From Thuidium tamariscinum (lineage: Eukaryota > Streptophyta > Bryopsida > Hypnales > Thuidiaceae), in contig OX344749.2 in NCBI GenBank assembly GCA_947034885.2, positions 17,437,501-17,501,500 on the forward strand: 64,000 nucleotides of DNA, in the 5' to 3' direction. Both the position numbers and the translations under genes were made by a program. The notes under the pieces are model-generated. The model made no database searches. It was given only the letters and a program-made list of their open reading frames with translations, and was not told the origin of the DNA. Of the stretch, positions 4,946-32,644 are shown piece by piece (the stretch's first letter is position 1; every line of letters begins with the position of its first letter).

Positions 4946-5905
4946 CCCCTCACCGCCCAAGAGGACCAAAAGTGTCCATGCAGTCAGACTCAAAGTGCTG
5001 TAACTTTTGCATCCAATGTCCAAATTCATTGAAACTTGTTGGAAAAGTTGCGCATTTTAATCTAGTTCTTATGGAAGAAATTTCAAATCAATAAAAGACA
5101 TATTGAGTTTTTGAGAGCCATTCAAAGTTCACAGGTTCATTTAGATGCAGCACACTGCATTGTGACTGCTGCAACTTTGGGGGATTGTATCTTTTTCATA
5201 AAATCTTTTTTTTTGATAAAACTTGTTGTGTTTTGTTCCTCTCAAAGTCTAGTTATTGTGCTAAAATTTTCATGCCAATCCAAGTTGTTTTGAATGTTTG
5301 GGAGCAATTCGAAGTTCAAAATCTAGACATTTTTGCATTTCAGTCAACTTTGGCGGCTCATAACTTCTTCATACATGATTGCTTTTCAATAATATTTGTT
5401 GGAAAAGTTTCACTTACTAATCTATTTTGTGTGGCTAAAATTTCAGATCCATCTAAGACGTTTTGAGTGACTGAGAAGCATTTTGGTAGAAGGAGCTTCA
5501 GCCACAGTTGTGATTTTTTCATCTTTTTTCACTGGTTTTTGACATTTCAAATCCATTTTCAAATGAAATGAGTGATTTTTATGAATTTTTTTCCCACTGA
5601 AGTGTTTATATTATGGTTTTGAATCACTTTGTAGTTTAATGTTTTTTCATTGGAGTTGGTTTAGAAATCCAATTTCACCTCCAAATGTGTTTTTAAGAAA
5701 ATTTCAGCACCTTTTTTGAACACTAAAACATTATAATCTTTCAATCTATACGGTCAAATGACCCAAAATTTGTTCCACACCATCTAAAAGATACACACTA
5801 CAAGATTGTACGGTTGAGATCTTCATACCTTACTCTAATTTTGAATTTTCAGACTTGCAAAGGCAGGCAGTTTTTAAGCATGGTTGGACCTTGGGCGGTG
5901 AGGGG
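4946..5905 (+). mobile_element. Non-autonomous TIR element, TTAA-flanked
   Basis: The ends are perfect 16-bp terminal inverted repeats: CCCCTCACCGCCCAAG at 4946-4961, and its reverse complement at 5890-5905. Each end is bounded outside by TTAA (4942-4945 and 5906-5909). Similarity between the ends continues imperfectly inward. The 960-bp interior has no transposase frame, so this is a non-autonomous element. A TTAA target with C-rich ends is the hallmark of piggyBac-type insertion, but TTAA is palindromic and could instead be part of the TIR, so the superfamily stays open. A decayed inverted copy sits at 899-1871. Confidence 0.75.
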
Positions 5906-15833: not shown

Positions 15834-15889
15834 GTGAGAAGTCACCGCCAATCTGCAGGCAGGCAGTCCTCGCCTCATTCATCCAAAAT

Positions 15890-16317
15890 ACGAGTCGATG
15901 AACATATCAGGAAGATACTACTTCTTCTCGGCCGGTAGCACGTTACCGGGCCCCCTAAACGCCGGCAAGCGAGTTGTGTTTGCAAGGCTCCAAAGCCTTC
16001 CTTGCACCATCCCGACCTGCTCCGTCCTCCCGTCGGTCGGTCGGTCGGAATTGCAGTCGCTGCTGCTGCACATCTGTCCTCCATTTCACCGAACACAGAA
16101 TTCCATCCCCTCCCTAGTTCTTCCCGATTTCTGCTCCATCCGGGGGTCGTCGCCAAGATCGGTTGGCTGCACTAGGTTTGATTGGAGTTTGGCGAGTGTT
16201 GGTGGCGAAGAAGAACGTCTGAGGGAGAGGGCGAGACGGACGGTGCGGAACAGAGAGATTTGCGTGGAGATTGCTTGATCATCTCCTGGATTGATTGCTC
16301 CATCACGGGTTGGGAAC
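15890..16317 (+). promoter_or_regulatory. Left ubiquilin upstream/5'UTR region
   Basis: GC-rich sequence directly upstream of the left palindrome arm. In reverse complement it resembles 31982-32400 upstream of the other ubiquilin gene, but with many substitutions and indels, whereas the arms themselves match perfectly. The most conserved block is 16045-16071 versus 32229-32255 (25 of 27 bases, around CAGTCGCTGCTGCTGCAC). Other shared islands are the TCTCCACGC block and the CGATCTTGGCG block. These may be core promoter or 5'UTR elements. No TATA box or transcription start could be fixed. Confidence 0.5.
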
Positions 16318-19300
16318 CAGGGATTGATTGAATAAAACCTAGAATAAGGGAAGCACTGCTGACCATGGGGAGCGAGCCGGAGGGCGCGGCTGCAGGGGCG
16401 GAAGGGACCGGCGCCACCCAGACTAACAGCGGCGGCGATAACGCCGTGGTGCACATACGCTGCTCGAATGGCAACAAGTTCACGGTGGAGGTGGATTTGG
16501 GTGCCACCGTGCTGGCGTTGAAGGGGTTGCTGGTGGAGCGCTCGGAGATTCCCGCGGACCAGCAGCGGCTGATTTACAAGGGGCGCGTGCTCAAGGACGA
16601 CAATACGCTCGACAGCTACGGTCAGTGGGCGTCGGGTTGATTTGCGATTGTTTTTCCGATTGCGTGCTGGGTCGATGGGGAATTGTTTATTTAATTTTGG
16701 TGGGAGAGGGCGTTGGATTGGATTGCGGGGTCGAATTGGATGGGCGATGACGATTTAGGGTTCGTGGCGACCGGTGAATTTGGGGTTCCGTGTGGAGTGT
16801 GGTCCGTGAGGGGATTCCTGGGGCGGGCGATTTAGGGCATTGCAGGCGGGCTTGGTGGATTGCACGTGGCTGTTTCTGTCTCTCGGATGAGTCTCGCCGT
16901 GGTGGATGTCGGGGCGTCTGTGAGGATGAGAACGGGGACCGACCTCGCACTGGGAATCGGACGAGCAGTTTCTCTTTGCTTCTGATCGAGGCGGCCATGA
17001 GAGGAAATGTCGGACCGCTTTTCCGACCCATTTCCAAGTGAGATGGGGAGGATCGCTCTTTCGCGCTCTCTGGTGATGCACATGTGGGACGAATGCGCTG
17101 AAAAAGTTTTGCGCCTTTCTAGTCCGTGCCTGTGATCTCCTGGTTTTCTTCTGCAATTTTTCTCATGGTCTTCGGCCCCACTTCACGAATCCTGTCATTT
17201 CGAAGCGAGTCCGGTTCTCCTTGTTGCGTTGCTTGCAAGAAGTGTGGGGTGTTTGTGAATCTTGAATTGATGTGCCAGTGCGAGCGAGCGCCCCACAGAT
17301 ACAGTGAAATGGGATCTCCTAGCGGGAGATTTCCATTGGGGGCTCGAAGTGAGTGGAATTGTGCGTGTCGAACGTTGATACGCAGCGATCGTGTATGCCT
17401 TGGTTCTGCTGGTCCAATTGAGTGTGCTTGGTGGTGAGGAGGGAGACCCGCGCCACCATTGCCTGCGATGACGCCTCCATCCATAGGACGCTGTGGTCCG
17501 TGGGTGGACTGAACCGTGTGTGAGTAGCCCCCTTCTCTGATGAACGACCGTGGTGCTCGTGGTCTTGTTGTCTCCGCAGGTCTGCAAAGCGACCACACGG
17601 TGCATCTGGTGCGAGGAGCGCCGGTCTCGTCTTCGCCCGGCGGCGGCAGCGGCGGCGTCTCGCCTTCCCCCGCGGTGGCGACCCCGGCGTCCGCTGCGCC
17701 TCCTCCCGCGTCCGCTGCGAATCCCGCCGGTTTGGGGTCCGTCCCGGGCCTCGGTCTGGGCGGCCTGGCGTTCCCCAACATGGCGGGCTTGGGTTCGGGT
17801 GGTGGCGCGGACGCGGGCGTGCCGCCCTTCGGGATGGGCCCTGCGGAGTTCCAGCAGGTGCAGCAGCAGCTGATGCAGAACCCGAACCTGATGCGCGAAA
17901 TGATGAACATGCCGGCGGTGCAGAACCTGATGAACAACCCGGACCTCATGCGGTCGCTGATCATGAGCAATCCGCAGATGCGGGAGATCATCGACCGGAA
18001 TCCTGACCTGGCGCACATTTTGAACGACCCGGGCACGCTCCGTCAGACGCTGGACGCCGCTCGCAATCCCGAGTTGATGCGCGAGATGATGCGGAACACG
18101 GACCGCGCCATGAGCAACATCGAGGCTTCGCCGGAGGGCTTCAACATGCTGCGGCGCATGTACGAGACGGTGCAGGAGCCGCTGCTGAACGCGGCGACCA
18201 TGGGCGGCGAGGGCGGCAACGACATGGCGGCGAACCCGTTTGCTGCTCTGCTGGGAGGGAACGCCGCGGCTGCGCAGGGCCATGCGCAGGGCGGACCGGG
18301 AGAAGCCAACAACGCCGGAGCCGGGACGACGGTGCCGAACACGGCACCTCTGCCGAACCCCTGGAATCCTACGCGTAAGCCTCGCTGCCCTCGCAGTTGA
18401 TACTGGTCTTGGGTGATGGCTTTTGAAATGAAGGGGACCGAAATGCGAAGTGTGCAGATGGAGCGTCGTTCCCTGAATGTGTCCATGCACTTGTTGGTAG
18501 TCTTCAGCACCGATCATCACGTCAGGCCGACGGGAATATTTTTTTTCTCCCCGTCAGCAGAGGGCCACTGTTTGTTGTTTTCTTTTGAGTGTGAATATGT
18601 CTAACTGTGCAGGGCTGTCGCGCGTCGTAGTACTCCCGAGTGTCTGATTGGCTCTGGTGTGGTGTTGGCAGCCGCAGGGGCTGGAACGGGAGCTGGGCAG
18701 GCTCCGGCGGCCGTTCCCGGCGCGGGTGTCGCGGCAGGCGGAGGGCTTCCGGACTTGGGCGGCCTGGCCGGCCTGGGCCTCCCGGACATGGGGGCGCTGG
18801 GTGGAGGGGGCCTTTTGGATCCGGCTATGATGCAGCAGATGCTTCAGAACCCGCAAATACAGCAGATGATGCAGGGCCTGTTGTCCAACCCCGCTTACAT
18901 GAACCAGGTGGGTGTTTGGGTCTTCCTCGCTCCTCTGTGTGGACGCTGTCCGGTCCTGCTTCCTCCGTTAGCGCCTGAGAGTGTCGGTCTTGAATTGCAC
19001 TTGGTTGAGACTCACCTGGTTTCGGAAGCGGTACCATCAGTGGAGCCATGAAAGAAGGACTGCGCCGTGGGTGCTTGTTGAACCTGCACGGCACCGGCGT
19101 GCTGAGGTGTTTTGTTGTTCCGGGTGGTCGCAGCCGCAGCTGCACGAGCAGCGTTCTCCTTGGCCGCAGTTTTCACTGGGTTCCTGGATGTTTTCCTTAC
19201 GGATGTCGCTGCAGCGTGAGTCGATTCTGTTTTGTCGGTTTCGTTGTCCCTTGATTGAAAGTCCGTTGGTGTCGGTGTTGGCAGATCATGAACATGCAGC

Positions 19301-21694
19301 CCCAGCTACGGGGGATGATGAATCAGAACCCCCAGTTCAGGGAGATGATGCAGAACCCAGAGTTCATCCGGCAAATGAGCAGTCCGGAAAGCTTACAGGT
19401 ACGTGGGCGCGTATCGGATTCCCCGGCCATGTGTACCCTGTTTGGGTGCTCAGAATCCGCCGCTTCTGGTTCCTTGTAGGTTCAGCGGTTCCCTTGTCGA
19501 AGGTGTAGGTTTGGTGCATTTCTTGGATGTGAATGGGGGGATTCCCGATTGCGGGTGATTGGAACTGACATTTTCATCTGGTTTGTTCGTTGGGTTCGAC
19601 CGAACTGCAGACTCTAATGCAATTGCAGCAATCGATGATGGGGCAGCGGGGACGACAAGCTCCTGGACAGTACGTCCCGTCCACCTCTTTGTCGTGGTGC
19701 AAAACTCAGTTCTTTGTAGCCGTGTTGGTGGTTGGTGGCTTTCCATTTATTTTTTCGTCGTGGGTTGCTAGCACGATCACTCTGATTTCCTTGCGCATCC
19801 AAGTCGCCTTCTTGCAAGTGGTTGGTGTATTCTTCGGTTAGGTGATCTTGTACGATGTTGCCACTGGAGTTGTCGGTTTTCTTTGTTGTCTGGGGAGAGG
19901 GTTTAGTGTATTCTTTTGGCGGTGGACACAGTCCTGGTTGTTGCTTTTGGTGTCCCAGGTCGTGTTGGTGGAAGGAACGTCCGTTGTTGCCGAAAATCAT
20001 GTGTTTCTTTGGCATTTTGTGGTGCTGGGATGGTGGGAATGAAGTGTACTGAGGCGCGTGCGCTGTCTTGCAGAAATGCTGGTCAAGGCGGCGGCGCTGG
20101 CTTGGGTGGAGGTGCGGGGATGAACATGGACATGTTGCTCAACATGTTCGGGGGACTGGGCGGTACAGCTCCTTCCAACCCTGACGGTACGTGGGTGTGA
20201 CCCTGGACGAGTCTCCAGGGTAGTTTATAGATGGCTGCAGACGATTGTGATGGCGGATGTCTTTGCTATTTTCTCGGACGTGTGAATGTGGGGCCATGGT
20301 CGTGTCTGCGGTGTCGACGCCATGGACAGAGCTGCTGTGGTTTCAGCCGATGTTTTGTGGTTCGTGTCTTTGTTTTGTGCGTCCGAAGGGTTGAGGCGTG
20401 GATGTTGTCTCCGCGGGCTGTTGTCGTAAGCACTGATATGATCGTTGGGTACCGATATTGCAGTTCCTCCGGAGCAGCTGTACGCGTCCCAGCTGTCCCA
20501 GCTGCAGGAGATGGGTTTCATTGATACGCAAGAGAACATCCGGGCGCTGAGCGCCGTGGGTGGGAATGTGCATGCTGCAGTGGAGCGGCTGCTGGGGAAT
20601 CTGGGATAACGACGCCCTGGTCTCCGCTGCGGGCCGATGGTTCGAGAGTCTGGATTGCATAGGCTGGAGCTTGTGGCTCAGATCGTGTGAGCTGAATCTT
20701 TGTTGTGATGCATCGCTTTCTCAGCTCCCATCCTGGTATAGGACTCCTCCTGGTTTTCCCGAGGAACGTGAGAGAGTGAGAGGAGAGGAATGTGACTAAT
20801 TTTGTGAGGTCTTTGCGTATGCTCGTATCACCTTCTCTGATTTTTCTAGAGAGCTGGGTGTGTAACTTAGTAGAAGAAGATAAGACGTTGCCTCACCAAT
20901 TGGAATGTGCGTGATGGCGGCCAGAAAGGTTTACACATGGAAGAGGTTGTGTATAGTTCTCTCTCTATTTTTACCAAGACATTCCGTTTGCCCTCCGATG
21001 TACGAAAATTTGAAGGAGCGGGTGCAGTCTAGATTTCGGAACATGGTGGGTCCGAGTGCACGTGTCTTCTTGGTCTGATGTGTTGCAAGGAAGGATGCTG
21101 TGGCCATTGTGGTTGGGAATGAACGCGTCTTCTTGTGAGAGGTATCGAATTGCAGCTTGGAGAGTGTGGGTTCGGCGTGGAGGTAGATTGAGTCGGTGAC
21201 TTGGTGGTGGTCGTCTTTCCGGGGAAAGACGTCACCGCTTGGAGGTTCAGATGTTTTGTCTTCGGGATTAGAGTTCGGATATCGAAACCGGCGGCGTGTC
21301 GTGAGCATGATTCATCTGTTTAATGTGAAGGTGGAGTTAGTCTAAATTTTAAACTCTGTAAAGTTGTGACATCCTTCCGTCTATACTTCTCTGTTTACTG
21401 CGGTATTTATTTTTTGGGGTACTGATGTATGTTGTCAATTTCAGTGATGATTTCACGCTTGAAGTCCATTTGACCTTTTGAGTGTAGAACTCTAGGTGGT
21501 CTTCGTGCTTTGAGGCCAGTATCTGTGGGTTGTCGAACATGTCGTTTCTCAACAAAACATTTCTCAGTGTCCAAGGACTCAACTTATTGATATTGCTATG
21601 AACATCTTTGATCTTCGTAAGATCTAGCCCCGTCCCCTTGGATTGTGTGAAAGCCATGAGAGGCTGGACTGGGAGGCGCAGTCTTGCCCTAAAT
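16318..21694 (+). repeat. Left arm of 5,377-bp inverted repeat
   Basis: Pairs with 26605-31981 about the axis x+y=48299. Every reading frame on both strands has a mirror partner of the same length and sequence, and direct comparison of several introns and flanks showed no difference, so no indel and no substitution was found. The outer edge is the first mismatch, at 16317/31982, 47 bp upstream of the start codon. The inner edge is at 21694/26605, about 1.1 kb past the stop codon. Beyond the outer edge the two sides are diverged relatives; beyond the inner edge they are unrelated. Confidence 0.95.
16365..20609 (+). CDS. DSK2: Ubiquilin / DSK2-type ubiquitin receptor (left copy)
   Basis: Shuttle receptor that binds ubiquitinated proteins through its C-terminal UBA domain and docks on the proteasome through its N-terminal ubiquitin-like (UBL) domain; in plants it also serves autophagy. 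Seven exons join in frame: 16365-16620, 17580-18374, 18672-18907, 19285-19398, 19611-19669, 20074-20186, 20464-20609, giving 572 aa (plant DSK2 is about 540). UBL about 28-100 with [18 protein letters not shown] and VHLVRG; STI1-type Met/Asn-Pro repeats about 180-290 and 400-480; UBA about 526-572 with LQEMGF and LLGNLG. The ATG opens an acidic Gly/Ala-rich leader followed at once by the UBL, and the first intron splits a Gly codon at the usual place. Exon 3 has two in-frame acceptors 6 nt apart (AG at 18670-18671 and 18676-18677). It is identical to the copy at 27690-31934. Confidence 0.95.
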
Positions 21695-21749
21695 CTTACC
21701 CTAGAGAAATTCAAAAGAATATAATTCAAAGATTCAGTTTCCTTAACGT

Positions 21750-22205
21750 GAAGATGCTTCTCTTCACCCATTTTCATGTTTGAGAAAAGTATTTTGTGTC
21801 CTGTACAAGTGTTCCTGGGTGTTGTGCTTTAAGCACATGTGGAAGGTGGACAATTTACTATTTTTAGAAAATTTCTTTGTAGTCTTGTGTAACTTTAAGA
21901 AATGTCTTTGCATGCAAATTTTGAGTTTAATGTTTTCATTTTTGGGTAAAAAATAGGACTAAGAACTACGTGAATTGTCAAAGTAGACATCTAATTGGCG
22001 CTTTTTTATAATAGTAAAATATATTTTTTAATTTTTAAAAAAATACATTATATCTAGAACTTTTATGTGTATCTTTAGTTGAAGTTTCGTGGGAATCGGA
22101 GAAAGGACACAAACATTATTAGTATCACAAACGTTATTAGTATAAACCCACGTGTCCAAGGCCAAGGGGACAAAAAATAGGACAAGTGTTTCTTTCAATC
22201 ACCTT
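21750..22205 (-). mobile_element. MITE family K copy 1, truncated, inverted
   Basis: In reverse complement this matches the left half of the element at 24204-24931: the end at 22205 reads AAGGTGATTGAAAGAAACAC, and the blocks around CATTTTTGGGT and TGTAACTTTA match in order. The other half and TIR are missing. Similarity fades between 21853 and about 21750, some 60-150 bp from the palindrome arm edge at 21694, so the element was probably cut by the rearrangement that made the palindrome. Confidence 0.6.
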
Positions 22206-22396
22206 GGCACAATTTATTTTTTGAATGATGCTTGGGCGTTAATAATGTTGTTAGAAGTTGATTATATTGAGTCCAACATCTGTGAAGTCAAATTCAAAGG
22301 GTGATTTGAAGGTTTAATCGAGTAAAGGCCAGTCAACTACTCTTGGATTGATATTGACACTTTTTCATTGGTAGCCAAAGATTTAGAATGAATTTG

Positions 22397-23130
22397 AGGG
22401 TGATTGCATGAAACACTTGTACTATTTTTCATCACGCGTCTCATGCTGATCTATTTTTTGACCATAATTTTTTCATTTTTGTTCCAAATGACTCAAGATT
22501 TCTAGAAAAGGTACTCATGACTATCATACACCTTATATAATTTTTTTCATAATTTTTAAAAATATTTTAGTACTAAAATAGTATTAGTGATTGAATGTCA
22601 CAAATGAAAATTTGGAGGTTTTTAGTCCTAAGGAGTATCTTTTTTTAATGATTTTAAGATGAAATTTGGATGAGATGGTTTTCTAGTAGACTTCTAGCTA
22701 TCAAAGGAAGGATTTTTGAAAATAGTTAATTTTATGTGGTGTGGAAGTCTATAAAGTGAGCTTCTTTTTGCTTGTATTTTGAAACATATAAAATATTATT
22801 TTGGTGACATTTTTGGTGAATGACCATCTCCATAGAGTTTTTTGCAAATGTCCACTTTTTATTTTTTATATTTACTTAATTTTACTATTTTTCCCTAATT
22901 AAAACATGAAGATATGAATTTTCTTGAGGTTTGGCACTTTTCAAGTTCTACTTAGAGAGTTTTTCTATACAATTCCTTCCGTGGGTACCTTCATCTTAAA
23001 GGTTTATACATAAGTCATATTTTTTTATAAATTTAAAATTTAATTTTATAATTTAATAGTACTCTGAAAAAAGTCAAGAGTATTGTTGCACAACGCAACA
23101 AATAGTATAGGTGTTTCATACAACCACCCT
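22397..23130 (+). mobile_element. MITE family K copy 2
   Basis: Terminal inverted repeats of about 30 bp with 26 matches: the left end 22397 begins AGGGTGATTGCATGAAACAC, and the right end in reverse complement begins AGGGTGGTTGTATGAAACAC. Length 734 bp. Flanks TTGA and TTGG hint at a short target duplication. The interior is collinear with copy 3 (for example the 'CATAATTTTTTCAT' block and the 'TTTTTAGTCCTA' block) and has no transposase frame. Confidence 0.7.
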
Positions 23131-24203
23131 TGGATATAGACAAAAGTCAATAGGTGTGAAAAATGGTGAATTGAATGCATTGGGATAAGAATTACAACAA
23201 TCTTTGCTAGTATGCAATTTAGGGGTTGAAAGAACTAATGAAATATGGGCTAAAAATACAAAACCCTTCTAACAAGAGAACCTTCAATGGCCAAAAAACT
23301 TACTGTAGAGGCCCAAATATTCATGCTAATTTCATTATTATGGTAAGATCTTCAAAATTCATCATGATTTATTTTTCCAGATTTAGCTTAGGACTAGAAA
23401 ATGCTTTGTCCAATCCAAAAATCAACCACAATCCTTAATGGGTTAAACGATGATCAATACTATTGTATGGTCAAGTTTATTAAAGAAATCGTAGCCAACA
23501 TCATTGGTTAAAAAGGTTGGTTAATCCTCTAACTCAAGTGGATTGTGTAGATTATGTTCTAGTTACTATTAGATGAATTCTCAAGTCTTTAAAGATGGAG
23601 TGAAGTTCTTGAAATTCTATTTTTTACCTCAATTAGACGTGTATTAGAACCTAATTTAGTTGTTTTTGTTTTAAAAAGTATTTTTAAACTCTAATTTGCC
23701 TATTGAAGGATGAAAATGGAAGAAAAATAGTTTATATTTTTGTAAACTTAAGATGCACTACAACTAAAATGAAAGAAAGATAAGGTGATAAGTAAAAAAG
23801 GATAGCCAATTAAAGTTCAATGTCTTCTTGGCTTAAGCATAAATTGATGTGGCACCATTAGGAAAGATAAGAAATGGGGGCCTTTTTCTTCCACCTTCAT
23901 AGTTGTTTAGAGTTTGCTATGAGTTTCAAGAGAGATATTACAATGTATATTGTGAATTTTGAAATGAATTCTTTTTAAATACTTTCCTTATTTTTGCAAT
24001 TATAAGAAGCTATGACTTGCTCAATTCAATGTTGTTATAAAACAATTATGCTTGTGAAAGTGTAAGAGGGTTTGTTGCTTCTTAATTTAGAGAGTTGAAT
24101 GTTCAAGGGTTGGTAGATAATTAGTTAAAATGTTGTTGACTTCTAATTTTAGATGGATTGTATTAAAAGTTATTAGCTTTCTATAAAATTATGATACTCT
24201 TAT

Positions 24204-24931
24204 GGGTGATTGCAAGAAACACTTATCCTTTTTTTTGTCCCCTTGACCTTTAGGAGGTAGTTTTTTGCTCATAATTTTTGCATCTTTTGTCCATTTGACT
24301 TGAAACTTGAAATGAAGGTGCCTACAAAAGTTTTACATTTTGTGTATTTTTTTTCAATTTTTTCAAAATTATTTTACTATTTTTAAACTACCCCCCATTG
24401 GATGTTTACTTTGGCCATTTTGGGGGGTTTTAGTCCTATTTTGGACCCAAAAATGAAAATTTTGAGCTAAAAATTGGCATGCAAGGACCTCACCTAAAGT
24501 TACAGAAGACCACGAAGAGATTTTTTGAAAATACTATATTGTTCAACCTCCACATGTCGTCAAAATGGCTGACTTTGCGCAAGTGTAGAGAATAGAATTT
24601 ATTTTTTCCAAAGATGAAATTTGTTGGAAAAGAAAGACATTTATTTGAAGAAAAAATAGATTTTTCATTTTCATTTTTTGAATTTTTTAACTATTTTTAT
24701 CAAATTAGTGAAAAAAGAGCTATTTTCATTGTATTTTCCATTGTCTAACATTTAGAGAAAAAAATTCTTAGGTTTGAATTTCAAGAGACATGATATTCTC
24801 ATTGCTCTTAAAATTATCCATATTTTTTTCAATTAAAAAAAAACTTATTTCAAAGGGTCACAGGACTCACAGGACTCACTGATTTTGAGTCATTTTGAGA
24901 CAAAACCGGTAAGTGTTTCTTGCAACGACCC
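24204..24931 (+). mobile_element. MITE family K copy 3
   Basis: Length 728 bp. The left end 24204-24228 begins GGGTGATTGCAAGAAACACT; the right end in reverse complement begins GGGTCGTTGCAAGAAACACT. TTAT sits immediately outside both ends and may be a target-site duplication. It includes a short tandem CACAGGACT(C)A repeat near the right end. No coding potential. Confidence 0.75.
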
Positions 24932-26604
24932 TTATATAGGAGTTGTTATAAAGGAATTATAAGTGTGAAGGTGAGATAGTATAGATTTGTTGGCTAAAAC
25001 CAAGACTTAGAAAAAGGTTCCAACTTTGATTAAACACATTAGAAGAGATAAAAAGTATCATAGAGGTTGTATGATATTAGTGACTTTTATTAGATTTGGT
25101 GAGTAGAAAAATAATCATTACAGTATGTGGTGTATGTCATGTAAGCAAAGAGGCTACAAACCCAACTGTGACTATACAATGATTCCAACGAGACACATAC
25201 AAGGCATGCCCTAGTCTTTCCTACATATAAACACAAAAATGTTATTTTTTGGTGGGTGACTCTTTTTGATGAAATTTCAAGGGTTCTTTGGGTTCTCTAG
25301 GTTTGCTAAGATTATTTAGAGTTTGTTTAAAGTTTATTGAATGGCTCCATCTTCAAAAAATCATAAAAGGCAAATAAGACTCACCTAAAATAACTTGCCA
25401 AGGATGACAATTTTTCCCTCTTGCTCTCCACCTATTGAATGGACACAACCTAATTCTTGTAATTCTTCAACTAATTGGGAGTTTCAGAAATAGTAACTTG
25501 TACATTGAAATCGGATATAAACATAACACATTGAAGCGACCATTTCCAGTGGCTTTTTTTTCCTAATATTGCAAGCAAGATATTTGTGTTATAAAGCCAA
25601 GATTCTGAGAGAATGATTACTATAGAGTTATACATGAAGTCTCACTGAAAACTCCAGTTTGTATCCTCAAAGACAAAAGAGGGTACGAAACTTTTTAATC
25701 TTCCAAAAGGAAATAAAAAAAATTTGGACCTTAGTATGAGGCAACCAATGCCTGAGCACTGCACATCCTAAGAATGTAGCCACCAATGTCCCCACCACTT
25801 CCCAACCCTCGTACCAAAGCTCTTACCATACCTAGTGTGAGCCATTCTGGGGTCCCAACTCAATTAATGTATGTCAGACTTGCTAAAGAAGGTTACAAAA
25901 GTCAAGATCAAAATTTGAAAATCTCTAAGGGAGAAACATCCATTTCCGTCCTTGTACCTATTCCTAGTCCCTAGAGTGTCACTAAATCTGTCCATAAGCA
26001 CTCATTAAAGTGTCTGACAAATGTTTAACTCTAATTTGTTGATGCAGTTGTAAGACACATGTATAATTTTTATTCACTGACAATTGATTTCAACAGAGTT
26101 CAGTTTAGGGTACACCTGTAGGAAGGTTCCAATGATCTGGGGAGCCAACTCTTTCAAAATTTGTAGAAACTATATACTGATTCTGAAAAATTAATTAATT
26201 TTTTTAATATTCATTATTTTCTCTCGCTAATACTAGAAAAATATCAGTTATAGAAAAAAAAGCCTCCAACCATGCTCAATTCCTTATTCGGATGGTTTTA
26301 GGTGTTCCCACTGTAGTTTACTTTACATATAACTCTAATATGTCTTGAAACACTTGGAGTTCTTAACCCCTAAACAACGAGCCGGTGGCCGTCAAATTGA
26401 GGAATTTTGATACCATGGGAATCATTGGTTCAAAAAAAATCAAAAAACAAACGTTGAAAGTCAAAGCACTGTAGAAGATAATCATTTTCCACCCCTAATT
26501 CCGAGGATGAATGATAGCAAGTCTGCCCTACATAAAAAGATTCCCTGAAGTTCATCGACCAGAAAATGGCTTGGGCGTCAATCAAGAGTTAAGAGAACTC
26601 CAAA

Positions 26605-29600
26605 ATTTAGGGCAAGACTGCGCCTCCCAGTCCAGCCTCTCATGGCTTTCACACAATCCAAGGGGACGGGGCTAGATCTTACGAAGATCAAAGATGTTCA
26701 TAGCAATATCAATAAGTTGAGTCCTTGGACACTGAGAAATGTTTTGTTGAGAAACGACATGTTCGACAACCCACAGATACTGGCCTCAAAGCACGAAGAC
26801 CACCTAGAGTTCTACACTCAAAAGGTCAAATGGACTTCAAGCGTGAAATCATCACTGAAATTGACAACATACATCAGTACCCCAAAAAATAAATACCGCA
26901 GTAAACAGAGAAGTATAGACGGAAGGATGTCACAACTTTACAGAGTTTAAAATTTAGACTAACTCCACCTTCACATTAAACAGATGAATCATGCTCACGA
27001 CACGCCGCCGGTTTCGATATCCGAACTCTAATCCCGAAGACAAAACATCTGAACCTCCAAGCGGTGACGTCTTTCCCCGGAAAGACGACCACCACCAAGT
27101 CACCGACTCAATCTACCTCCACGCCGAACCCACACTCTCCAAGCTGCAATTCGATACCTCTCACAAGAAGACGCGTTCATTCCCAACCACAATGGCCACA
27201 GCATCCTTCCTTGCAACACATCAGACCAAGAAGACACGTGCACTCGGACCCACCATGTTCCGAAATCTAGACTGCACCCGCTCCTTCAAATTTTCGTACA
27301 TCGGAGGGCAAACGGAATGTCTTGGTAAAAATAGAGAGAGAACTATACACAACCTCTTCCATGTGTAAACCTTTCTGGCCGCCATCACGCACATTCCAAT
27401 TGGTGAGGCAACGTCTTATCTTCTTCTACTAAGTTACACACCCAGCTCTCTAGAAAAATCAGAGAAGGTGATACGAGCATACGCAAAGACCTCACAAAAT
27501 TAGTCACATTCCTCTCCTCTCACTCTCTCACGTTCCTCGGGAAAACCAGGAGGAGTCCTATACCAGGATGGGAGCTGAGAAAGCGATGCATCACAACAAA
27601 GATTCAGCTCACACGATCTGAGCCACAAGCTCCAGCCTATGCAATCCAGACTCTCGAACCATCGGCCCGCAGCGGAGACCAGGGCGTCGTTATCCCAGAT
27701 TCCCCAGCAGCCGCTCCACTGCAGCATGCACATTCCCACCCACGGCGCTCAGCGCCCGGATGTTCTCTTGCGTATCAATGAAACCCATCTCCTGCAGCTG
27801 GGACAGCTGGGACGCGTACAGCTGCTCCGGAGGAACTGCAATATCGGTACCCAACGATCATATCAGTGCTTACGACAACAGCCCGCGGAGACAACATCCA
27901 CGCCTCAACCCTTCGGACGCACAAAACAAAGACACGAACCACAAAACATCGGCTGAAACCACAGCAGCTCTGTCCATGGCGTCGACACCGCAGACACGAC
28001 CATGGCCCCACATTCACACGTCCGAGAAAATAGCAAAGACATCCGCCATCACAATCGTCTGCAGCCATCTATAAACTACCCTGGAGACTCGTCCAGGGTC
28101 ACACCCACGTACCGTCAGGGTTGGAAGGAGCTGTACCGCCCAGTCCCCCGAACATGTTGAGCAACATGTCCATGTTCATCCCCGCACCTCCACCCAAGCC
28201 AGCGCCGCCGCCTTGACCAGCATTTCTGCAAGACAGCGCACGCGCCTCAGTACACTTCATTCCCACCATCCCAGCACCACAAAATGCCAAAGAAACACAT
28301 GATTTTCGGCAACAACGGACGTTCCTTCCACCAACACGACCTGGGACACCAAAAGCAACAACCAGGACTGTGTCCACCGCCAAAAGAATACACTAAACCC
28401 TCTCCCCAGACAACAAAGAAAACCGACAACTCCAGTGGCAACATCGTACAAGATCACCTAACCGAAGAATACACCAACCACTTGCAAGAAGGCGACTTGG
28501 ATGCGCAAGGAAATCAGAGTGATCGTGCTAGCAACCCACGACGAAAAAATAAATGGAAAGCCACCAACCACCAACACGGCTACAAAGAACTGAGTTTTGC
28601 ACCACGACAAAGAGGTGGACGGGACGTACTGTCCAGGAGCTTGTCGTCCCCGCTGCCCCATCATCGATTGCTGCAATTGCATTAGAGTCTGCAGTTCGGT
28701 CGAACCCAACGAACAAACCAGATGAAAATGTCAGTTCCAATCACCCGCAATCGGGAATCCCCCCATTCACATCCAAGAAATGCACCAAACCTACACCTTC
28801 GACAAGGGAACCGCTGAACCTACAAGGAACCAGAAGCGGCGGATTCTGAGCACCCAAACAGGGTACACATGGCCGGGGAATCCGATACGCGCCCACGTAC
28901 CTGTAAGCTTTCCGGACTGCTCATTTGCCGGATGAACTCTGGGTTCTGCATCATCTCCCTGAACTGGGGGTTCTGATTCATCATCCCCCGTAGCTGGGGC
29001 TGCATGTTCATGATCTGCCAACACCGACACCAACGGACTTTCAATCAAGGGACAACGAAACCGACAAAACAGAATCGACTCACGCTGCAGCGACATCCGT
29101 AAGGAAAACATCCAGGAACCCAGTGAAAACTGCGGCCAAGGAGAACGCTGCTCGTGCAGCTGCGGCTGCGACCACCCGGAACAACAAAACACCTCAGCAC
29201 GCCGGTGCCGTGCAGGTTCAACAAGCACCCACGGCGCAGTCCTTCTTTCATGGCTCCACTGATGGTACCGCTTCCGAAACCAGGTGAGTCTCAACCAAGT
29301 GCAATTCAAGACCGACACTCTCAGGCGCTAACGGAGGAAGCAGGACCGGACAGCGTCCACACAGAGGAGCGAGGAAGACCCAAACACCCACCTGGTTCAT
29401 GTAAGCGGGGTTGGACAACAGGCCCTGCATCATCTGCTGTATTTGCGGGTTCTGAAGCATCTGCTGCATCATAGCCGGATCCAAAAGGCCCCCTCCACCC
29501 AGCGCCCCCATGTCCGGGAGGCCCAGGCCGGCCAGGCCGCCCAAGTCCGGAAGCCCTCCGCCTGCCGCGACACCCGCGCCGGGAACGGCCGCCGGAGCCT

Positions 29601-31981
29601 GCCCAGCTCCCGTTCCAGCCCCTGCGGCTGCCAACACCACACCAGAGCCAATCAGACACTCGGGAGTACTACGACGCGCGACAGCCCTGCACAGTTAGAC
29701 ATATTCACACTCAAAAGAAAACAACAAACAGTGGCCCTCTGCTGACGGGGAGAAAAAAAATATTCCCGTCGGCCTGACGTGATGATCGGTGCTGAAGACT
29801 ACCAACAAGTGCATGGACACATTCAGGGAACGACGCTCCATCTGCACACTTCGCATTTCGGTCCCCTTCATTTCAAAAGCCATCACCCAAGACCAGTATC
29901 AACTGCGAGGGCAGCGAGGCTTACGCGTAGGATTCCAGGGGTTCGGCAGAGGTGCCGTGTTCGGCACCGTCGTCCCGGCTCCGGCGTTGTTGGCTTCTCC
30001 CGGTCCGCCCTGCGCATGGCCCTGCGCAGCCGCGGCGTTCCCTCCCAGCAGAGCAGCAAACGGGTTCGCCGCCATGTCGTTGCCGCCCTCGCCGCCCATG
30101 GTCGCCGCGTTCAGCAGCGGCTCCTGCACCGTCTCGTACATGCGCCGCAGCATGTTGAAGCCCTCCGGCGAAGCCTCGATGTTGCTCATGGCGCGGTCCG
30201 TGTTCCGCATCATCTCGCGCATCAACTCGGGATTGCGAGCGGCGTCCAGCGTCTGACGGAGCGTGCCCGGGTCGTTCAAAATGTGCGCCAGGTCAGGATT
30301 CCGGTCGATGATCTCCCGCATCTGCGGATTGCTCATGATCAGCGACCGCATGAGGTCCGGGTTGTTCATCAGGTTCTGCACCGCCGGCATGTTCATCATT
30401 TCGCGCATCAGGTTCGGGTTCTGCATCAGCTGCTGCTGCACCTGCTGGAACTCCGCAGGGCCCATCCCGAAGGGCGGCACGCCCGCGTCCGCGCCACCAC
30501 CCGAACCCAAGCCCGCCATGTTGGGGAACGCCAGGCCGCCCAGACCGAGGCCCGGGACGGACCCCAAACCGGCGGGATTCGCAGCGGACGCGGGAGGAGG
30601 CGCAGCGGACGCCGGGGTCGCCACCGCGGGGGAAGGCGAGACGCCGCCGCTGCCGCCGCCGGGCGAAGACGAGACCGGCGCTCCTCGCACCAGATGCACC
30701 GTGTGGTCGCTTTGCAGACCTGCGGAGACAACAAGACCACGAGCACCACGGTCGTTCATCAGAGAAGGGGGCTACTCACACACGGTTCAGTCCACCCACG
30801 GACCACAGCGTCCTATGGATGGAGGCGTCATCGCAGGCAATGGTGGCGCGGGTCTCCCTCCTCACCACCAAGCACACTCAATTGGACCAGCAGAACCAAG
30901 GCATACACGATCGCTGCGTATCAACGTTCGACACGCACAATTCCACTCACTTCGAGCCCCCAATGGAAATCTCCCGCTAGGAGATCCCATTTCACTGTAT
31001 CTGTGGGGCGCTCGCTCGCACTGGCACATCAATTCAAGATTCACAAACACCCCACACTTCTTGCAAGCAACGCAACAAGGAGAACCGGACTCGCTTCGAA
31101 ATGACAGGATTCGTGAAGTGGGGCCGAAGACCATGAGAAAAATTGCAGAAGAAAACCAGGAGATCACAGGCACGGACTAGAAAGGCGCAAAACTTTTTCA
31201 GCGCATTCGTCCCACATGTGCATCACCAGAGAGCGCGAAAGAGCGATCCTCCCCATCTCACTTGGAAATGGGTCGGAAAAGCGGTCCGACATTTCCTCTC
31301 ATGGCCGCCTCGATCAGAAGCAAAGAGAAACTGCTCGTCCGATTCCCAGTGCGAGGTCGGTCCCCGTTCTCATCCTCACAGACGCCCCGACATCCACCAC
31401 GGCGAGACTCATCCGAGAGACAGAAACAGCCACGTGCAATCCACCAAGCCCGCCTGCAATGCCCTAAATCGCCCGCCCCAGGAATCCCCTCACGGACCAC
31501 ACTCCACACGGAACCCCAAATTCACCGGTCGCCACGAACCCTAAATCGTCATCGCCCATCCAATTCGACCCCGCAATCCAATCCAACGCCCTCTCCCACC
31601 AAAATTAAATAAACAATTCCCCATCGACCCAGCACGCAATCGGAAAAACAATCGCAAATCAACCCGACGCCCACTGACCGTAGCTGTCGAGCGTATTGTC
31701 GTCCTTGAGCACGCGCCCCTTGTAAATCAGCCGCTGCTGGTCCGCGGGAATCTCCGAGCGCTCCACCAGCAACCCCTTCAACGCCAGCACGGTGGCACCC
31801 AAATCCACCTCCACCGTGAACTTGTTGCCATTCGAGCAGCGTATGTGCACCACGGCGTTATCGCCGCCGCTGTTAGTCTGGGTGGCGCCGGTCCCTTCCG
31901 CCCCTGCAGCCGCGCCCTCCGGCTCGCTCCCCATGGTCAGCAGTGCTTCCCTTATTCTAGGTTTTATTCAATCAATCCCTG
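26605..31981 (-). repeat. Right arm of 5,377-bp inverted repeat
   Basis: Mirror of 16318-21694 with no difference found. It carries the second ubiquilin gene, its introns, about 1.1 kb of downstream sequence and 47 bp of leader. The right arm ends inside the 5' leader, after which the two loci differ. Confidence 0.95.
27690..31934 (-). CDS. DSK2: Ubiquilin / DSK2-type ubiquitin receptor (right copy)
   Basis: Second copy, predicted to encode the same 572-aa UBL-STI1-UBA protein. Exons in transcription order: 31679-31934, 29925-30719, 29392-29627, 28901-29014, 28630-28688, 28113-28225, 27690-27835. All splice sites, introns and both UTR-proximal flanks match the left copy. It faces the left copy tail to tail, with about 7.1 kb between the two stop codons. 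The promoter lies outside the identical arm and has diverged from that of the left copy, so the two genes could differ in expression while making one protein. Identity of introns as well as exons argues for recent copying or gene conversion and not for selection on the protein. An assembly artefact cannot be excluded from sequence alone. Confidence 0.92.
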
Positions 31982-32400
31982 TTTTCCCAACCTCAGATGA
32001 AGCAATTAATCCAAAAAACAAGCAAGCAGTCTCCACGCGAAAGTCCCTCTGTCTTGCTCTCTCGCCCTCTCTGAGCCGAGCGATTGTTCGTCGTTACAAG
32101 CAGTCCTGGGAAACCTATGCCTCCCTAGCGATCTTGGCGTCGACTGGGGATGAAATCGGGAATACCAAGGGAGCTTTCGAGGCTGCACAATATCTCCTGG
32201 GCCGGTGTTGGTGAAACCGATCACGGGTGTGCAACAGCAGCGATTGCAATTCCGATTGATGGACGGGTGGCAAGGACAGGTCGGCTCATACAAGCACCCT
32301 GCAAACGCAGTCGTCCAAGCGGCCCGCAAAGCAGCTGTCGCGCCAGCCCACCGGACCGGGGACGAAGTATCGTCCCGTCGTCGCCGCGCTCGCTTCGTTC
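31982..32400 (-). promoter_or_regulatory. Right ubiquilin upstream/5'UTR region
   Basis: Diverged counterpart of 15890-16317. Read on the minus strand it leads into the gene. Shared islands with the left copy include the 27-bp block at 32229-32255, the CTCGCCCTCTC pyrimidine stretch and CGATCTTGGCG near 32131. The many small indels between these islands contrast with perfect identity starting at 31981. Confidence 0.5.
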
Positions 32401-32644
32401 GGTTCGGTTCGTCTGTCCTTGGACGACGGCGTCCATCTTCATCGTCCATTTCGGTGAGGCATTTGTGCATGAAGATTCCATAACGTCAAATTTGAATGGA
32501 GTTTCAGATGTGGAGCTTCGAGTAGGAAGGTAGGAGCTCCCTGTCATCCCTCTGCACGTATGGAAGAAACTGGCCAGCCAATGATTTCCAATTTTTTTTG
32601 TAGGTACAGAAATGGAAAAGAAACAAACTGCAGTCTAAATTGTA

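Follow-up and report, generated by a model that had tools for sequence, protein, structure and literature searches.

Background

In the HMA4 cluster of Arabidopsis halleri, the coding sequences are under ectopic gene conversion, the promoters have separate histories and a dosage benefit has been argued (PMC3749932). The palindromes of human and ape Y chromosomes consist of arms of very high identity around a unique spacer and undergo arm-to-arm conversion with a GC bias (PMC3403216, PMC5591018). Among mosses, tandem genes and hexokinases of Physcomitrella are highly similar and gene conversion has been proposed for them (PMC3045890). Plant ubiquilins are themselves present as few, similar copies (DSK2A and DSK2B in tandem in Arabidopsis, two almost identical genes in Selaginella, three similar ones in Physcomitrella), and most of these plant duplicates have been interpreted as very recent duplications (PMC4230246). 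In the excerpts of these reports considered here, such systems come closest to the subject of the present work, an inverted pair of identical ubiquilin genes that form the arms of a near-palindrome in the moss Thuidium tamariscinum and whose promoter regions are homologous but clearly diverged. No account of this ubiquilin palindrome locus was found among the top-ranked results of the open-access literature.

The analysed window (the whole 64,000-nucleotide stretch, G000:C1:17437501-17501500) belongs to a genome of 363 Mb in 19 contigs, and this single assembly is the source of all data. Positions without a contig name are those of the window.

Results

Identical arms and intact genes

The two arms of the near-palindrome are as follows.
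16318-21694, plus strand: left palindrome arm, 5,377 bp, identical to the right arm
26605-31981, minus strand: right palindrome arm, 5,377 bp, identical to the left arm

As reverse complements, the arms agree at 5,377 of 5,377 bp, introns included, and the identity stops sharply, with 0 extra matching bases outward or inward at both ends. Given 0 differences, arm divergence is below about 5.6e-4 (rule of three), which is roughly 0.2% of the divergence of the outer flanks. Near-identical inverted arms with their introns, as expected of a gene-converted inverted duplicate, are therefore present, and an asymmetric spacer of 4.9 kb separates them. A DNA search of the genome with the arm returned 3 matches, one for each arm and a third, of 123 bp, to an intron fragment on contig C9.

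Each arm contains a complete ubiquilin gene of 7 exons encoding 572 amino acids (aa), and the pair is inverted, tail to tail. The gene model was built by hand on the left arm, where it is intact; the right arm has the same sequence and its gene was taken from the mirror coordinates.
16365-20609, plus strand: left ubiquilin (DSK2-type) gene, 572 aa; manual model, open frame, GT-AG introns
16365-16620, 17580-18374, 18672-18907, 19285-19398, 19611-19669, 20074-20186 and 20464-20609, plus strand: exons of the left gene
27690-31934, minus strand: right ubiquilin gene, with the same sequence as the left gene; placed by mirroring the left model
20610-21694, plus strand: 3' untranslated region/downstream DNA within the left arm; GC content 47%, same in both arms

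The product matches the Pfam domains ubiquitin (1.6e-22, residues 29-97), UBQLN1 (2e-39, two stretches, the best at 189-258) and UBA (4.4e-07, residues 531-567). This is the architecture of the Ubiquilin/DSK2 family (N-terminal ubiquitin-like domain, internal STI1-type repeats, C-terminal UBA domain), the STI1-type repeats being scored through the UBQLN1 domain rather than counted by a model of their own. When the whole genome was searched with the UBQLN1 domain, 6 candidates were scored and 2 matched, each inside an arm; this search found no further ubiquilin beyond the two arms.

Diverged outer flanks

Directly outside the arms, the regions upstream of the two genes are related.
16012-16317, plus strand: left outer flank, a promoter/5' region that has diverged from its homologue at 31982-32284
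31982-32284, minus strand: right outer flank, diverged promoter/5' region, of which 32142-32267 has a relative on contig C2

Depending on the gap costs chosen, the flanks are 77-80% identical over 271-276 columns, with a Kimura two-parameter distance of 0.23-0.27 and 15-23 gap events. Their local alignment score of 119 compares with highest values of 29 from 200 plain shuffles and 27 from 500 dinucleotide shuffles, and significant homology extends over about 305 bp (16012-16317 / 31982-32284). In the next stretch (15860-16011 against 32285-32484) homology is not significant, the score being reached by 28 of 500 shuffles, nor is it in the stretch beyond, where 330 of 500 shuffles reach the score. 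A looser alignment of 1.5 kb of outer flank was dropped because its scores beyond about 305 bp lie within the shuffle range. The old promoter divergence beside perfect arm identity is real and not due to chance, and at this outer end, and only here, a sharp switch from identity to older divergence is seen within homologous DNA.

These results agree with most of what a first-pass annotation of the window had described, namely two 5,377-bp arms identical and free of indels (we count 0 differences), an arm boundary 47 bp before the ATG (the ATG at 16365 is 47 bp inside the arm) and flanks that are homologous directly outside the arms yet diverged, with many indels. Its estimate of 350-400 bp for the flank homology is slightly too long.

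The flanks also bear on two simpler explanations. In the first, a recent inverted duplication of the gene and its downstream DNA produced the pair, and the upstream similarity is due to chance or derived from repeats. Identical arms, and inner ends that adjoin non-homologous DNA, would fit such an event. However, the upstream similarity is far above that of the shuffles, begins right at the arm boundaries and runs collinear with the start of the gene; moreover, when 15900-16317 was used as a DNA query against the genome, the left flank returned only itself, although this search is too insensitive even for the diverged right flank. A simple duplication of the entire stretch in recent times is very hard to reconcile with perfect identity next to old divergence in collinear homologous DNA, and we give this explanation hardly any credence; the first-pass annotation, too, had argued against a recent simple inverted duplication.

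In the second, the sequence of one arm was written into both places during assembly, for which the 0 differences in 5.4 kb could speak. A palindrome due to a missing adapter would instead mirror the flanks and lack the asymmetric 4.9-kb spacer, whereas the actual flanks differ in 20-23% of aligned columns; to our knowledge, assemblers do not join reads at homologous points across such divergence. Allelic duplication is also unlikely if the source was a haploid moss gametophyte, as is stated in the abstracts for two of three other moss genomes. Judged on the asymmetric spacer and the homologous yet different flanks, an artefact is unlikely, and all points taken together lead us to regard it as very improbable.

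Promoter and intron fragments elsewhere in the genome

Part of the right flank (32142-32267) has one relative, a fragment of 126 bp with 86.5% identity at C2:39893669-39893794. Within the stretch covered by this fragment, the left and right flanks match in 77 of 120 columns, the left flank and C2 in 67 of 113 and the right flank and C2 in 111 of 130, so that the left-right identity (64%) is here below the whole-flank value. In the three-way comparison the left flank carries the lone variant at 33 sites, against 2 for the right flank and 8 for C2, which makes the left promoter a long branch. The C2 fragment, far closer to the right promoter, is consistent with an old promoter divergence and, with a rough clock, the left-right split would be older than the split between the right promoter and C2. 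The C2 fragment itself (L043:1501-1626) adjoins a GC-richer, partly CpG-rich stretch.

On contig C9, from C9:21944603 onward (L003:1501-1695), two collinear pieces of the first intron, of 123 and 44 bp, lie in AT-rich, CpG-poor DNA; the 123-bp piece has 25 differences from the arm, 9 of them at CpG sites of the arm. The possibility of a third ubiquilin at this place was rejected, as only the two first-intron pieces are present, and the first 350 aa of ubiquilin, used as a query, gave no coding match in 3.1 kb near them.

Fragments of this kind make it conceivable that the left locus was only an old 5' ubiquilin fragment, where a recent one-ended event rebuilt the whole gene and no old second gene ever existed. 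Indeed, ubiquilin fragments do exist elsewhere (the promoter piece on C2 and the two intron pieces on C9), and homology of the left locus is proven for the 5' flank only. This scenario nevertheless needs a correctly oriented relic within about 16 kb of an intact gene, and the locus bears no direct sign of what preceded the event; we consider it unlikely.

Inner ends and spacer

The inner ends of the arms are of a different nature and involve the following elements.
24204-24932, plus strand: full-length transposon of about 730 bp with terminal inverted repeats (TIR); 39 other copies at 92-94%
21707-22203, minus strand: truncated old copy of the same TIR transposon; towards the arm boundary it lacks the distal part of about 250 bp with the second terminal repeat
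21695-21706, no strand: junction of 12 bp from the left arm to the truncated transposon
26380-26597, no strand: dispersed repeat, described for its part inside the query, ending 7-12 bp from the inner end of the right arm

The spacer shows an inverted similarity (21707-22203 / 24205-24685) that superficially looks like a second diverged flank. As a remnant of a larger inverted duplication it was rejected, since it belongs to a dispersed high-copy transposon. With the whole spacer as query, 40 candidates were scored of 13,352 first-look candidates, and all 39 other scored candidates match 24204-24932 at 92-94%. This TIR family is thus abundant, and copies at 92-94% perhaps reflect a fairly recent burst.

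The left piece aligns to the first 480 bp of the full copy with a score of 246.5 (shuffle maximum 42, n=300), and of a 737-bp copy at C4:16774727-16775463 only 16774729-16775208 aligns to the left piece. The left piece is matched in 43 alignments, of which 8 begin at spacer base 13 or 14 and all others at base 133 or beyond, a normal pattern when local alignments have an identity of about 70%. The missing distal 249 bp were sought in the adjoining arm end (last 400 bp): in the expected orientation the score is 21, reached by 79 of 300 shuffles; in the other orientation it is 29 (2 of 300 shuffles); and the plus strand of the whole arm gives 29 (0 of 100 shuffles, maximum 28), the last two values being marginal and far below 246.5. 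By these scores, the missing distal part is not hidden inside the arm. With 12 bp between the left arm and the broken interior of a transposon, the inner end of this arm is a structural, non-homologous junction.

At the right inner end, the dispersed repeat gave 42 matches (39 other copies, the locus itself, the left arm and one shorter match). All 39 other copies match from the first base of the query, and for 38 of them the match stops at 26592-26597, so the right inner end adjoins a repeat at the common end of its family. A switch from identity to divergence is therefore absent from the inner ends, where the similarity is that of a high-copy transposon whose left copy is truncated at the arm.

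Base composition

Within the arm, GC content is 65% in the coding sequence, 79% at third codon positions (GC3), 54% in introns and 47% in the downstream part; it is 57% and 53.5% in the two outer flanks and 31.5% in the spacer. In 5-kb windows, the arms reach 56-57% GC against a maximum of 47.6% in 762 sliding windows of the same size, taken from a 200-kb sample of two 100-kb blocks. The observed/expected ratio of CpG is 0.96 in coding sequence and introns and 0.30 in the spacer, and the arms show no sign of long-term CpG decay. Pieces of the neighbouring CesA gene in the window have GC3 values of 0.59-0.73, and a piece of a gene that is presumably MnmA-like has 0.41. The CesA values indicate that high GC3 is not peculiar to ubiquilin; the whole arms, introns included, still exceed the sampled windows. 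Their GC excess is compatible with repeated GC-biased conversion and is no proof of it, because the unhomogenised outer flanks are GC-rich too.

Another ubiquitin-shuttle family, of RAD23 type (XPC-binding domain, partial matches), also has a pair in opposite orientation, at C2:45136586 (plus strand) and C2:45179805 (minus strand), 43 kb apart, so that two such families, ubiquilin and RAD23-type, occur in this genome as inverted pairs. The RAD23-type copies are 87% identical over 2.6 kb and their 3.1-kb loci have GC contents of 0.445 and 0.435, which we take as one illustrative case and not as a test.

These figures are relevant to classical two-sided concerted evolution, in which a long-lived inverted pair underwent repeated GC-biased conversion from arm to arm and the inner homology was cut back independently by transposon insertion or deletion. 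The arms are indeed a GC outlier with introns at 54%, the low GC of a RAD23-type inverted pair that is only 87% identical goes in the same direction, and a GC bias of conversion is reported, in the excerpts considered, for human Y palindromes. Against this, the outer flanks, presently unhomogenised, match the arms in GC-richness (0.57 and 0.535), the gene may have been GC-rich from the outset, the CesA pieces have high GC3 too, and the RAD23 comparison is a single case. We hold this scenario to be rather unlikely.

Silencing inverted repeats of the PAI/CHS type have methylated arms and matching small RNAs. For silencing of the ubiquilin pair by a read-through hairpin, the CpG ratio of 0.96 argues against stable long-term methylation.

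Other repeats and organelle-related sequences

The assembly comprises 11 contigs of at least 17.5 Mb, the other 8 being of at most 115 kb, and we take the moss to have 11 chromosomes. The small contig C19 carries psaA/psaB-type plastid genes. The best matches of the plastid PsaB are three distinct PDB sequences, 8htu, 6l35 and 7ksq (1694-1698 bits, the next one at 1663), which represent photosystem I of Physcomitrium patens. Contig C18, of which 500 bases were read, is probably mitochondrial, its 103 kb being close to the length of a moss mitochondrial genome. Nuclear pieces that match psaA/psaB and contain stop codons lie at C1:38344367-38345416, C2:5226827-5227651 and C6:6427592-6427915; their differing decay suggests that they are probably plastid DNA insertions of different age. 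The region C2:3000001-3100000 (L014-L023) contains three direct copies, 87-90% alike, of a gene whose protein we take to be F-box-like, and an inverted duplicate at 93.6% with copies about 19 kb apart. Finally, the window itself has a second inverted repeat of about 850 bp (975-1817 / 4990-5830, 77.6% identity) in AT-rich, CpG-poor DNA.

Discussion

We propose that ectopic homologous repair acting on one side recently wrote one ubiquilin copy, more likely the right one, over the other locus, an explanation that we consider reasonably probable. Briefly, the two promoters of the inverted tail-to-tail pair would have separated long ago. The 5' homology immediately upstream of the ATG would have served as the anchor for repair, and a tract of about 5.4 kb, comprising the gene and its downstream DNA, would have been transferred to the other locus. 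On the inner side, the event may have ended by non-homologous (illegitimate) joining into the transposon, or together with its deletion. The outcome would be one identical protein under two different promoters. The arm identity, the diverged promoters, the lack of further ubiquilins in the domain search and the truncated transposon at the left inner end are direct results, whereas we infer the copying direction and the one-sided mechanism. The copying may have been a single recent event or the last in a series; the GC excess points towards a series and does not decide. The proposed copying overlaps with both concerted evolution and the rebuilding of a gene on a promoter relic, so that our degrees of confidence in these three are not shares of one whole.

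In view of the broken transposon on the left and the long branch of the left promoter, the donor was more likely the right copy. Several points weigh against the proposed copying. The donor side rests on these two pointers, both of which are weak. The truncation of the left transposon could be an older or a later deletion unrelated to the copying, and this transposon copy is itself old, at about 70% identity to its family. The divergence signal is carried by only about 305 bp of outer flank, and the three promoter sequences give an unrooted comparison in which an ordering of the splits needs a clock. The inner ends have no diverged homologous flank, so that an old second gene of full length is hypothetical. 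All evidence comes from one assembly.

The first-pass annotation had suggested an older inverted duplication whose arms were homogenised by arm-to-arm conversion. Copying between the copies remains the best explanation, given the old promoter divergence and the C2 fragment; the part with less support is the symmetry, as divergence beside identity is confined to the outer end, the inner similarity is that of a dispersed transposon and a structural junction forms the left inner end. Two full-length old arms, and a tract that ends in homologous DNA on both sides, are therefore hypothetical. Its further statement that one protein stands under two different promoters is correct at the sequence level.

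If the recent copying is right, the locus would be a clean case of a gene whose coding sequence misstates its age by orders of magnitude, the older history being kept only in about 305 bp of promoter. It would also mean that a ubiquitin-shuttle gene can have two promoters of different history with the protein unchanged, and the part that homologous repair and GC bias play in the gene pairs of mosses would become directly testable. More tentatively, and with some doubt, the locus might be a long-lived gene-scale palindrome that stays identical through recurrent GC-biased conversion in a haploid-dominant plant, with two independent promoters for one protein. In that case, at least some of the "very recent" plant ubiquilin duplications would be old pairs whose age has been erased.

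Comparison with known systems

The comparisons below extend as far as the excerpted reports introduced above. In its effect, the HMA4 cluster of A. halleri is the closest match, since there too coding sequences are kept alike and promoters are separate; it differs in having three tandem copies and population data, whereas the ubiquilin pair consists of two inverted copies with 0 differences in 5.4 kb in one assembly. The Y palindromes share the geometry of inverted near-identical arms around a spacer, but their arms average 73 to 344 kb and lie on sex-limited chromosomes, while here the arms are 5.4 kb long, contain one gene and lie on chromosome C1. The Physcomitrella genes are likewise moss paralogues that are unusually alike and for which conversion is proposed; that proposal rests on trees and similarity, whereas at the present locus the identity boundary is visible within homologous DNA. 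Finally, the plant ubiquilin duplicates belong to the same family and also consist of few, highly similar copies. They have been read as very recent, whereas the promoters described here argue for an older split masked by copying, and this locus is a reason to test that reading on promoters and not on coding sequence.

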